DNA from: Globodera rostochiensis
Lineage: Eukaryota; Nematoda; Chromadorea; Rhabditida; Heteroderidae
Reading direction: 5' to 3'
NCBI GenBank assembly: GCA_018350325.1
Contig: JAEVLN010000002.1
Span: forward strand, 3,250,295-3,314,294
Length of the DNA stretch: 64,000 nucleotides
Part shown: piece after piece, positions 30,090 through 58,065 of the stretch
Position numbering within the stretch: position 1 is the stretch's first letter
Layout of the letters: each line of letters opens with the position of its first letter
Notes under the pieces: generated by a model
The model's database searches: none
What the model was told of the DNA's origin: nothing
What the model saw: the letters and a program-made list of their open reading frames with translations, nothing else
Position numbers and translations under genes: made by a program

Positions 30090-30279
30090 AGTGAAGGTCA
30101 AAAAACATGATCTAAAGCCGAGATTAGGTATGTGACTATATTCATGTTAAGAAGAAAGTGACAGAATCCAAAGTTCAATGAGTGCTGATAATGCGAAGTA
30201 AATCAGTCGCTTTCGTCCATTTGATAATTGTGGCCCTAAAGAGGGCCGTTTGGGTTAGTTTTGGGTGTTGTCGTTGTCC

Positions 30280-30578
30280 TCAGTTGTGGTTATGGTAACC
30301 AGCCTGGTAGAGCGTGATTTGGAATTCTCCGAAATCCAGCTCTTCCGCCTTTCTTAAGTTGCTAAAATAAAAACAAATTCTATTCAAATTACTTACAGTC
30401 TATATCTGCAATCATGATGCCTCCTGCGGTAGCATTCGTAGTATACTACCCTAGGATTTGGTGAATGACGTTTGTGGTAACGGTGTTGCGCACAATACGC
30501 GTGCACCGCTTCCCAGGTGGCGAAAGTACCAATCTCTACCCACAGAATCTCGTGCAAATTGCCGAAGTTCTCGTTCAT
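30280..30578 (-). CDS. stand-alone FLYWCH/WRKY-GCM1-like zinc-finger mini-gene, copy 1
   Basis: Two exons (30578-30397 and 30361-30280), separated by a 35-bp intron, encode 87 residues. The pattern YYECYRRRHHDC followed by GYHNH gives C49, C57, H84 and H86, the C2HxH layout of FLYWCH and Mutator-transposase FAR1/WRKY-GCM1 domains. TWEAVHAYCAQH near residue 22 resembles the start of such domains in MULE transposases. There is no transposase catalytic domain nearby. The exon and intron sequence matches the plus-strand copy at 57444-57742. The family assignment is inferred from pattern, not from a search. Confidence 0.65.
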
Positions 30579-30624: not shown

Positions 30625-30632
30625 TATTTATA
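30625..30632 (-). promoter_or_regulatory. TATA box of mini-gene copy 1
   Basis: On the minus strand tataaata lies about 47 bp before the ATG at 30578. It is preserved in copy 2 at the same spacing. Confidence 0.6.
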
Positions 30633-30824
30633 CCAAAAAACAAGGGAAAATATCGGTCATAGCGGCCAGAGCCAAAATCGAACAAAACATATACCAATCG
30701 ACTCCTCTCGGTCTGCAATGTAAGAATCCGAAAAAAAAATTTTGGGCAACAATTCCCTAAAGATTTACAGACCCGGGACTGAAGTGTCTTTTGACTGGAT
30801 ACTCAGTGTCCACTGATTAAAAAG

Positions 30825-31030
30825 GCGTACGGTCCGAATGCCGACCGCCCGAATGCAGACCAAGCCAAAATCGGTCCGAATGCCGACGTCCGAATGCAGA
30901 CCAAGCCAAAATCGGTCCGAATGTCGACCGGTCCGAATGCAGATCAAGCCAAATCGGTCCGAATGTCGACCCACTGTAAATCGGCCTGAATACCGACCAA
31001 GCCAAAATCGGTCTGAATGCAGACCCATCA
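30825..31030. repeat. minisatellite upstream of mini-gene copy 1
   Basis: Imperfect units built from cggtccgaatgccgacc and gaatgcagaccaagccaaaa. The same family occurs, inverted, at 57172-57370 and as a shorter block at 31381-31455. Confidence 0.85.
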
Positions 31031-31054
31031 CAACAAATCTAAAATTTTATCGCA

Positions 31055-31310
31055 CAAACTTTAGCCATTTTGAAGGAACAAATAAAAGCAATCGTTCATC
31101 AAAATTGAATGTTCGCCACAGAGATTCAAAGCATATTCAAAAATATCGACGCATTTGCACAGATCAGTGGCAAACTTTTGATTGGGTTCGGTTCCTCGGC
31201 GTCCAAGCGCCCCTTCAGAAATGTCCACAGTTTTTGACGCCATCGCCCATCGTCGATCAGTGCGAACAGCGGCAGAAGGAATTGCATATAAACGAAACGA
31301 AAAAGAGCTT
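31055..31310 (-). pseudogene. frameshifted fragment of an unidentified gene (copy of 56899-57105)
   Basis: The minus strand reads FRFVYMQFLLPLFAL, then DDGRWRQKLWTFLKG and DAEEPNPIK. There a one-base loss breaks the frame; the continuation CVDIFEYALNLCGEHSI is in another frame. The plus-strand copy at 56899-57105 is uninterrupted here. No start, promoter or flanking exons are present. Confidence 0.7.
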
Positions 31311-31380
31311 TAGCTCTTGAAGAGCTTTCGAATGACTATAATAATGTCTGAATATGTCAAGGTTGAAGCAAGTTATTGCC

Positions 31381-31455
31381 CAGTCTGTATTCGGACCGGT
31401 CTGCATTCGGATCAATTTATGTTTGGTCTGTATTCGGACCATTCTGCATTCAGAT
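31381..31455. repeat. short block of the same minisatellite family
   Basis: Four degenerate units of the ctgtattcggaccgg / ctgcattcggat type, oriented opposite to the array at 30825-31030. Confidence 0.7.
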
Positions 31456-31466
31456 ATGTAGCCGAC

Positions 31467-31510
31467 TAAAAAACGTCAAATATGGACTAAAAACCCCCTA
31501 AAAATCTCGA
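31467..31510. repeat. 44-bp direct repeat, right copy
   Basis: Identical to 29976-30019. See that entry. Confidence 0.85.
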
Positions 31511-55697: not shown

Positions 55698-57105
55698 AAA
55701 ATGTTCATCATTTTGCAATTCCTTCGTCTGTCTCCGTTTTCCGCCAACGGACGGTGGCCCTGCAAATTTTGCTCCAACGGTCGACGACCCGTCGCCAACA
55801 GTCAATCCCTTCACCTCGTCGGTCGTGTTGAGATGGAATTACTGGACGAAAATGCCAAAATGACACTTCCAAATCGAACCCATTCATTCGCATTCGACGA
55901 CGGAGTTCGTTTCGACTTTGAAACGGCCGACGTTCCAAACAGAGAGCAAATCCACACGGAGTGAGTCGGTGCTGGGAGTAGGCACCGGCCCCTCCTTTCT
56001 GGCCACCTCTTTCCCGTTCATCAAACCCTTTTCTGTTAGAAACAGTTTATTATTGCCCGAACTCTGATTAAGCTCGCTTCCCGATGTGCTGATCTGCGAC
56101 GAGTGGTGGCTGCCCATGTTGCCATCTACCGGCAACTGATCTGCGAAACGCTGTCCGAAGAGGGCGATGTTCGCTGACAGATCGGGTTATCGGACAGATG
56201 GACCCAATTGGTGTTAAAATGTCACGAGCTTTGGTGTGGGTGGTGGACCCGGTGATGGCGACATTTCCGGGACTGCTGGACACGGACAGTGACGGAACCG
56301 TCCTCCTCATGGGACTCATGTGCAAATTCAATTTGGACAAAGTGAGCTCCGACTTCCTTTCGGTCACTACCCCCCCCCCCCCCCTCCCCAAATTCAGCGC
56401 GCTTGGCCCCACAGGACGGCGGCGTTCATTTCAGTGCCCACACTTCAGAGACGCACACTTCAGTGCCGGGACACTTCAGTGCCAGCAATTAATAGCATAT
56501 AACTTTTTTTAAACTCAACCAAATCAAACAATCAAGATATCAATTGAAGGCTCTAAATAAGAAGTATCGTATAAAAAAAAACCAAGGTGGTTCAATTCGT
56601 TTTTAAGAAGTTCAACGTGAAAAACACCCAAAATCGGGGCTTTTTATCCGTTTTATCGCAATAACTTTTTACGAATTTTTAATTGATTAGCGTTGGCTTA
56701 ACAATAGCTTTTTAAAAAAGCTTAGTGCTTTCCAATGACATCTTAATTGTTTGATTTGGTTGAGTTTAAAAAAAGTTATATGCTTTTAATTGCTGGCACT
56801 GAAGTGTCCCGGCACTGAAGTGTGGGCATTGAAGTGTGCGTCTCTGAAGTGTGGGCACTGAAATGATGTGTACCGCCACAGGAGGCCACGCGTCGCTTTC
56901 GTTTCGTTTATATGCAATTCCTTCTGCCGCTGTTCGCACTGAACGACGATGGGCGATGGCGTCAAAAACTGTGGACATTTCTGAAGGGGCTCTTGGACGC
57001 CGAGGAACCGAACCCAATCAAAATGTTTGCCACTGATCTGTGCAAATGCGTCGATATTTTTGAATATGCTTTGAATCTCTGTGGCGAACATTCAATTGAC
57101 TGAAC
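55698..57105 (+). pseudogene. decayed remnant of an unidentified multi-exon gene
   Basis: Several protein-like pieces follow in order on the plus strand: VEMELLDENAKMTLPNRTHS and FDDGVRFDFETADVPNREQ (55830-55960); KQFIIARTLIKLASRCADLR and VVAAHVAIYRQLICETLSEE (56040-56175); after a frameshift, LTDRVIGQMDPIGVKMSRAL and WVVDPVMATFPGLLD (56170-56340); and FRFVYMQFLLPLFALNDDGR with FATDLCKCVDIFEYALNLCG up to a stop at 57103 (56890-57105). An inverted-repeat element (56427-56865) interrupts it. I do not recognise the protein. The frameshift and insertion suggest it is dead; the last piece has a second, frameshifted copy at 31055-31310. Confidence 0.6.
56427..56865. mobile_element. inverted-repeat (foldback/MITE) element
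   Basis: Both ends start catttcagtgcccacacttc and continue inverted for about 90-110 bp, built of sub-repeats of cacttcagtgcc. One arm has an extra sub-repeat. The interior is AT-rich and noncoding. No clear target duplication was found. Confidence 0.8.
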
Positions 57106-57171: not shown

Positions 57172-57370
57172 GGGTCTGTATTCGGACCGATTTTGGCTGA
57201 GCCTGCATTCGGACGGTCTGCATTCAGACCGATTTTGGCTTGGTCGGTATTCAGACCGATTTACAGTGGGTCGACATTTGGACCGGTCGACATTCGGACC
57301 GATTTTGGCTTGGTCTGCATTCGGGCGGTCTGCATTCGGATCGGTCGACATTCGGACCGATTTTGGCTTG
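57172..57370. repeat. minisatellite upstream of mini-gene copy 2
   Basis: Imperfect units of gaccgattttggcttgg and ctgcattcgga, inverted relative to 30825-31030. It ends shortly before the TATA box of the mini-gene. Confidence 0.85.
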
Positions 57371-57389
57371 TTTTCCCTTGTTTTTTTGG

Positions 57390-57397
57390 TATAAATA
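57390..57397 (+). promoter_or_regulatory. TATA box of mini-gene copy 2
   Basis: tataaata lies 47 bp before the ATG at 57444 and is preceded by a T-rich stretch. Copy 1 has the same sequence and spacing. Confidence 0.6.
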
Positions 57398-57443
57398 GAC
57401 AGGGATTTCACCATTCTTACTTTTTTCCTTCTCATTCCTCATT

Positions 57444-57742
57444 ATGAACGAGAACTTCGGCAATTTGCACGAGATTCTGTGGGTAGAGATTGGTACTTTC
57501 GCCACCTGGGAAGCGGTGCACGCGTATTGTGCGCAACACCGTTACCACAAACGTCATTCACCAAATCCTAGGGTAGTATACTACGAATGCTACCGCAGGA
57601 GGCATCATGATTGCAGATATAGACTGTAAGTAATTTGAATAGAATTTGTTTTTATTTTAGCAACTTAAGAAAGGCGGAAGAGCTGGATTTCGGAGAATTC
57701 CAAATCACGCTCTACCAGGCTGGTTACCATAACCACAACTGA
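57444..57742 (+). CDS. stand-alone FLYWCH/WRKY-GCM1-like zinc-finger mini-gene, copy 2
   Basis: Exons 57444-57625 and 57661-57742 with a 35-bp intron give the same 87 residues as the minus-strand copy at 30280-30578, and the intron is identical too. The predicted zinc ligands are C49, C57, H84 and H86 (ending GYHNHN). A TATA box, short leader, good splice sites and a stop make a complete transcription unit. The 3' flank (57743-57918) is shared with copy 1 but differs by substitutions and indels, and similarity ends near 57918. No transposase domain is present. The product is basic and probably nuclear. Confidence 0.68.
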
Positions 57743-58065
57743 GGACAACGACAACACCCAAAACTAACCCAAACGGCCCTCTTTAGGGCCACAATTATCA
57801 AATGGACGAAAGCGACTGATTTACTTCGCATTATCAGGAAAATCACTCATTGAGCTTTGGATTCTGTCACTTTCTTCTCAACATTAATATATTCACATAA
57901 TCTCGGCTTTAGATCAAGTTCGGTTACTTTTTTCGATTACACCAATTTCTGTCGAAATGAGTTTCCAACTAAAGATACAATTCAGCACCGTTATTTCCTA
58001 GCCGTACTTGGTGCAATTTGACACTGTTTTTTAACGAACCACCCCAAAAATCGAATTAATTAAAT

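Follow-up and report, generated by a model that had tools for sequence, protein, structure and literature searches.

Mini-genes of Globodera rostochiensis with a putative lone zinc finger and a histone-type 3' end

The window analysed here, a stretch of 64,000 nucleotides from contig JAEVLN010000002.1 of the cyst nematode Globodera rostochiensis, carries two copies of a very short two-exon gene, hereafter the mini-gene, whose stop codon is followed by a 3' end of the type found in histone genes. The copies belong to a family with four intact genes of three kinds and some fragments, each intact gene probably coding for a single WRKY-GCM1-type zinc finger of 79–84 residues; each family gene has its own TATA promoter, a leader that is short and rich in pyrimidines, a single short intron, and the histone-type 3' end. 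As a fairly probable explanation we propose a domesticated family of zinc-finger host genes, the messenger RNA (mRNA) of which would be coupled to replication and, through the histone 3'-end pathway, not polyadenylated. The mini-gene would work like a replication-dependent mRNA, though it is no histone gene, and is assigned to no Pfam family.

The two copies in the window

Copy 1 lies on the minus strand (exon 1, intron, and exon 2 at 30280..30578) and copy 2 on the plus strand, with exon 1 at 57444..57625, the intron at 57626..57669, and exon 2, which contributes the HNH motif and the stop codon of an 84-residue protein, at 57670..57742. They are identical at 299/299 bases, the intron included, as had been described in an earlier note on this DNA. 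The TATA box, located at 57390..57396 (plus) in copy 2, in the context TATAAATAGACAGGGATTT common to all four family genes, and at 30626..30632 (minus) in copy 1, precedes the ATG by 54 nt in both, in agreement with the equal spacing claimed before. The longest run without a difference between the copies reaches beyond the 299-bp gene to 419 bp (57419..57837 on the plus strand in copy 2), whereas in the aligned flanks, made up of a 272-bp upstream fragment and 77 bp on the downstream side, 13 of 349 positions carry a difference and there are 16 gap columns besides. The earlier note, which had suggested a comparison of coding and flank divergence, was right in reporting substitutions and indels in the flanks as well as the state of the upstream gene fragment, which has an open frame in copy 2 and a frameshift in copy 1. 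At the flank rate, the chance of no difference within 419 bp is about 1e-7; because this tract is identical and the flanks have diverged, the identity of the window copies is unlikely to be due just to a duplication as old as the flanks suggest, and the 419-bp stretch is probably a gene-conversion tract.

The intron of copy 2 is taken here as 44 nt (GTAAGT..CTTAAG), and an alternative acceptor, TTTTAG, ending at 57660 on the plus strand, would shorten it to 35 nt. Both forms stay in frame, giving 84 and 87 residues, respectively. The shorter intron with its 87-residue product, as given in the earlier note, is possible in the window pair, to which this option is confined, but both paralogues introduced below allow the 44-nt form only, and the same form is used in four of the five UniRef models (P0001–P0004); the model from Globodera pallida (P0005) diverges at the splice. 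The models of the window genes have the 44-nt splice as predicted, but their ends differ. By this comparison the intron of the window genes may be of 44 nt rather than 35 nt.

The histone-type 3' end

Past the coding sequence, in a part of the gene on which the earlier note was silent, lies a histone-type stem-loop (Rfam RF00032), GGCCCT-CTTT-AGGGCC within CAAAC..ACA, at 57775..57790 (plus) in copy 2 and at 30232..30247 (minus) in copy 1, in both cases 32 nt from the stop codon. The stem of 6 bp, the loop of 4 nt, and the conserved flanks at a short distance from the stop are those of a replication-dependent histone 3' end. The stem-loop is followed by a conserved block, CAAATGGACGAAAGCGAC, common to histone genes and a candidate histone downstream element (57799..57816, plus, in copy 2; 30206..30223, minus, in copy 1). 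Scored on a 201-nt stretch, RF00032 gives 29.8 bits (E 5.7e-07), which is under its gathering score of 34, and a scan of the whole window at that score found nothing; in a genome-wide Rfam scan, in which the best 75 of 22,353 candidates were scored, 34 bits were reached by none of the 26 sites listed, histone genes included.

In a whole-genome DNA search a stretch of about 58 bp past the mini-gene stop recurs at many sites. The exact 21-mer across the hairpin occurs at 23 sites in the 92.6-Mb genome, and at 25 when up to two mismatches are allowed; the reversed control has no match. Fifteen of these 25 sites follow the intact C-terminus of H2A, H2B, H3, or H4, two follow an H2B remnant, and for one the nearest sign of a histone is a core-histone match that lies 394 bp upstream; five belong to the mini-gene family (the four genes and one fragment), and two are relics without a gene. 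When the 3' ends of the 25 loci were compared in register, the conserved block that follows it, (C)AAATGGACGAAAG(C/T)GAC, next to the hairpin, proved to be common to much of the H2A/H2B set and weaker in H3/H4; the mini-gene carries this downstream element as the histone genes of its own genome do, and is closest to H2A/H2B. Not counted as hairpin sites were C23:304608, with 28.6 bits in the Rfam scan, an unlike stem and loop, and no histone in the stretch read, and 13 sites with three mismatches, 10 of which are one unrelated repeat (CATGGCCC..) and two another. At C3:1754283, also with three mismatches, the 3' flank is histone-like and no histone end was found; it may be a decayed histone 3' end. 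A pattern search for the U7 small nuclear RNA gave five matches versus three in the control, and the four that were fetched had no convincing context.

The similarity to histone genes does not extend to the promoter. A promoter common to mini-genes and histone genes was rejected, as the family TATA motif, with at most one mismatch, occurs only at the four genes and at a relic, C37:72402; with three mismatches the matches are near the control level (30 in all versus 25 for the reversed pattern). TATAAA stands 30–85 nt upstream of the ATG in five histone-cluster loci, in a context unlike that of the family TATA box. As a side observation, the stem-loop histone genes of this genome (L024, L029, L039, and others) appear to bear introns: ahead of the C-terminal exon their open frames contain stretches that look like introns, and Pfam matches them exon by exon.

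The gene family and its conservation

The genome-wide copy count proposed in the earlier note yielded four genes plus fragments. Besides the window pair (W), the genes are A (C1:5207889) and B (C1:6145679), both on a contig other than that of the window, with a protein identity to the window copies of 51–53%. The TATA box, leader, single intron, and 3' end are common to W, A, and B; with the 44-nt intron (GTAAGT/GTAAAT...CTTAAG) their proteins have 84, 79, and 79 residues and end alike, with a common HNH region and stop. For A and B, the UniRef models agree with these predicted proteins in every letter. Across the four genes, homology sets in a little upstream of the TATA box and stops soon after the hairpin block, so that the shared part has the extent of a transcription unit. 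One fragment, C1:5565841, retains no more than the last part of exon 2 plus the hairpin, and C36:42966 is a decayed 3' part. The relic at C37:72402 comprises the family promoter alone, directly followed by an inverted-repeat element.

Nonsynonymous (dN) and synonymous (dS) divergence, estimated by NG86, was 0.42 and 1.37 for W-A, 0.38 and 1.45 for W-B, and 0.24 and 0.40 for A-B, so that dN/dS for W versus each paralogue is about 0.3. The excess of dS is significant for W-A (p 1.4e-4) and W-B (p 1.2e-5), not for A-B (0.11); the coding sequence has evolved under purifying selection between W and the other two. Diversifying selection, hinted at by conserved flanks around a poorly conserved coding sequence, was discarded, dN being below dS in all three comparisons. 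Differences in the leader, intron, and 3' flank taken together amount to 18/197, 18/194, and 5/194 in the three comparisons, well under the level of synonymous sites, a pattern for which either constraint on RNA elements or patchy conversion may be responsible. It can be added that the 44-nt intron is identical (44/44) between A and B, though their synonymous sites differ by about 31%.

Protein and profile searches found homologues in Globodera only, four of the five models being from G. rostochiensis. The G. pallida model P0005 (88 residues) resembles the others in exon 1 and has the C-terminus TTTTEDDDNTQN*, which is exactly the translation of the 3' untranslated region (UTR) of mini-gene A in a different frame, as far as the TAA that precedes the hairpin. 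Because P0005 reads through this sequence, the 3' UTR up to that TAA predates the split of G. rostochiensis and G. pallida. P0005 as modelled leaves the frame before the second Cys and so lacks both that residue and the HNH motif.

These data bear on the view that a gene captured a histone 3' UTR by chance, was recently duplicated in the window, and is in practice polyadenylated. It is consistent with the duplicated window segment, which takes in the upstream element and gene fragment, with the fragment C1:5565841, in which the 3' module is joined to just the end of exon 2, and with the presence of ATTAAA or AATAAA, at a distance of up to 300 nt, in A and B as well as in copy 2. The 3' module, however, has been preserved between W and its paralogues despite near-saturated synonymous change (dS about 1.4), and, in G. 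pallida, at least as far as the TAA that closely precedes the hairpin; because a non-functional module would hardly persist at such divergence, chance capture seems unlikely.

The encoded protein

The pattern C-x(4-8)-C ... H-x-H is the zinc-ligand pattern of the WRKY-GCM1 zinc-finger superfamily, in which the FLYWCH, FAR1, WRKY, GCM, and AFT zinc fingers are grouped. In the mini-gene proteins C-x6/7-C..H-x-H is invariant in all three G. rostochiensis kinds. None of these proteins reaches a curated Pfam cut-off: FLYWCH (PF04500) matches one of the three members at E 0.015, below its cut-off, and an hhalign comparison with seven FLYWCH domains of the same genome was not significant (0.15% on the program's probability scale). 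No histone was among their Pfam matches, and the mini-genes were not among the core-histone sites. The predicted structure, a model of fair confidence built on four sequences, two of which (P0001 and P0005) probably have mis-modelled tails, is a beta-rich fold, with AFT2 and WRKY domains ranking high among its structural neighbours; no FLYWCH structure was among the 50 VIA rows listed, Foldseek gave no match against the PDB at E <= 0.001, and a PDB sequence search returned nothing relevant. The model suggests a lone WRKY-GCM1-type (FLYWCH-like) zinc finger. Of the earlier assignment to a FLYWCH/WRKY-GCM1 finger, the wider fold is suggested by the prediction and FLYWCH in the strict sense is not borne out. 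Separately, a host gene exon at C34:4013450 contains a C..C..HNH module similar to that of the mini-gene protein, with a marginal FAR1 (E 0.027)/RYYR-CCHC match.

The RNA itself could be the conserved product and the reading frame secondary, as may be the case for Cg-1 of Meloidogyne, which is described (PMC3169594) as a spliced transcript of 456 nt with a histone hairpin and frames of 3–32 residues only. That the leader, intron, and 3' part outconserve synonymous sites in every comparison would fit such a role. The frame, the stop, the C/C/H/H residues, and the in-frame character of the indels are nevertheless preserved in all three kinds, dN is well below dS for W versus A and B, and the protein model folds with fair confidence, all of which makes an RNA product decidedly unlikely.

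The neighbouring Mutator-type element

Next to copy 1 lies a complete Tm1-like foldback element of 640 bp (30824..31463, minus strand, read from 31463 to 30824), with GGCTAC..GTACGCC ends, minisatellite termini, and a gene-like fragment inside. It is bordered by a 9-bp target-site duplication, TTTTTAATC at 30815..30823 (minus) and TTTTTAGTC at 31464-31472, matching at 8/9 positions. The minisatellite upstream of copy 2 (57172..57366, plus) is a tandem-repeat terminus of the same element family and lies outside the gene. Repeats of this type precede both copies, as had been claimed, but about 180 bp of other sequence intervenes between the element end and the TATA box of copy 1. The fragment inside the element, in its copy-2 form, has 95% protein identity to C6:1402716 and is possibly a captured host piece. 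Another foldback-type repeat, with arms 93–98% complementary, is situated upstream of copy 2 at 56426-56866.

In the whole-genome DNA search, in which the best 40 of 74 candidates were scored, the minisatellite matched many genome sites, in several cases as facing pairs. At C19:544880-547985 (read within C19:544700-548200) the minisatellite forms inverted termini around a FLYWCH stretch (E 5.6e-06, above the cut-off) and a MULE stretch (E 8.5e-04, below it); no 9-bp duplication was seen there by eye. With its tandem-repeat inverted termini and FLYWCH domain this is probably a Phantom-type Mutator element, resembling Tm1 of root-knot nematodes and representing the source type of the minisatellite. 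It was not among the genome matches of the mini-gene proteins.

Could the mini-gene be cargo or a derivative of a non-autonomous Mutator (Phantom) element of the Tm1-HH type, with the hairpin between foldback termini as in root-knot nematodes? In Meloidogyne, according to PMC3169594, Tm1 joins a FLYWCH-MULE transposase, foldback termini of repeats of about 14 bp, 9-bp duplications, and hairpin elements, and the C19 element and the repeats upstream of both window copies provide counterparts in the present genome. Against this, the element at copy 1 closes with its own duplication ahead of the gene start; no terminus was found downstream of either window copy among the 40 candidates scored; at A and B no minisatellite match was listed and no inverted repeat longer than 29 nt was found in 3.4 kb around each; and the limits of four-gene homology fit a transcription unit. 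Little probability is therefore left to this view, and the minisatellite, which forms Mutator-type termini elsewhere, was rejected as a part of the mini-gene. Of the two readings offered in the earlier note, the non-autonomous element is not supported, and the better one is the domesticated, stand-alone finger that gene conversion keeps uniform, given the preserved frame, the dN/dS, and the identical tract.

Proposed expression and significance

In the favoured explanation, that of domesticated host genes, the mini-gene would be transcribed and spliced, and the stem-loop-binding protein (CDL-1/SLBP) would attach to the hairpin of the transcript. Cut a few bases past the hairpin, the transcript would become an mRNA lacking a poly(A) tail, produced and stable in replicating cells only; in C. 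elegans, histone mRNAs end 3–6 nt past the same type of hairpin, which is followed by a conserved element, according to PMC1924863. With the hairpin at the end of the message, the mini-proteins are possibly made only during DNA copying. The message would encode a small protein that binds DNA or chromatin and is delivered together with histones in the dividing germline and embryo, and gene conversion would keep the window pair identical. The gene structure, the family, the hairpin with its downstream block, the purifying selection between W and the other two, and the identical tract can be read from the sequence itself, while processing at the hairpin, expression in S phase, the binding of zinc and DNA, and gene conversion as the source of the identity are inferred.

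In 2011 the hairpin was described in PMC3169594 as having been exclusive to replication-dependent histone transcripts up to the finding of the non-coding Cg-1 of Meloidogyne. No earlier report of a hairpin-ended coding gene like the mini-gene was among the open-access literature matches listed, a set mostly without subscription journals. If the explanation is true, other genes can take over the histone 3'-end pathway, the mini-gene offers a simple test system for the replication-coupled expression of a DNA-binding protein, and there is a hint at the origin of the Cg-1/Tm1-HH hairpin. The joint proposal that cyst nematodes possess a class of non-histone coding genes using the histone 3'-end pathway, which would supply a lone WRKY-GCM1 zinc finger in time with DNA replication, and that Cg-1/Tm1-HH goes back to a gene of this class picked up by a Mutator element is put forward tentatively, as the less probable outcome.

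Comparison with known systems

The mini-gene resembles the replication-dependent histone genes of metazoans in the hairpin and its flanks, the short distance from the stop, and the downstream block, and among those of its own genome H2A and H2B are closest and H3 and H4 less so; it differs from them in its zinc-finger-like protein, its family-specific TATA box and leader, and its location outside histone clusters. With Cg-1/Tm1-HH of Meloidogyne (PMC3169594) it shares a histone hairpin at a non-histone locus of a plant-parasitic nematode, a short spliced transcript, in the mini-gene a predicted one, and a small family. Tm1-HH has no coding capacity and lies between foldback termini, whereas the mini-gene can encode a conserved protein and no composite foldback termini surround it. 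Hairpin, FLYWCH, and Mutator co-occur both in Meloidogyne, in Tm1, and in Globodera.

The C19 Phantom-type element has a FLYWCH domain, and its termini are formed by the same minisatellite; unlike the mini-gene, it consists of a probable transposase gene between inverted termini, with no histone hairpin listed. The WRKY-GCM1 zinc fingers are like the mini-gene protein in the C..C..H-x-H pattern, the beta-rich predicted fold, and the AFT2/WRKY neighbours; unlike these relatives, the mini-gene protein is below every Pfam cut-off and consists of the single domain alone, with no partner domain.
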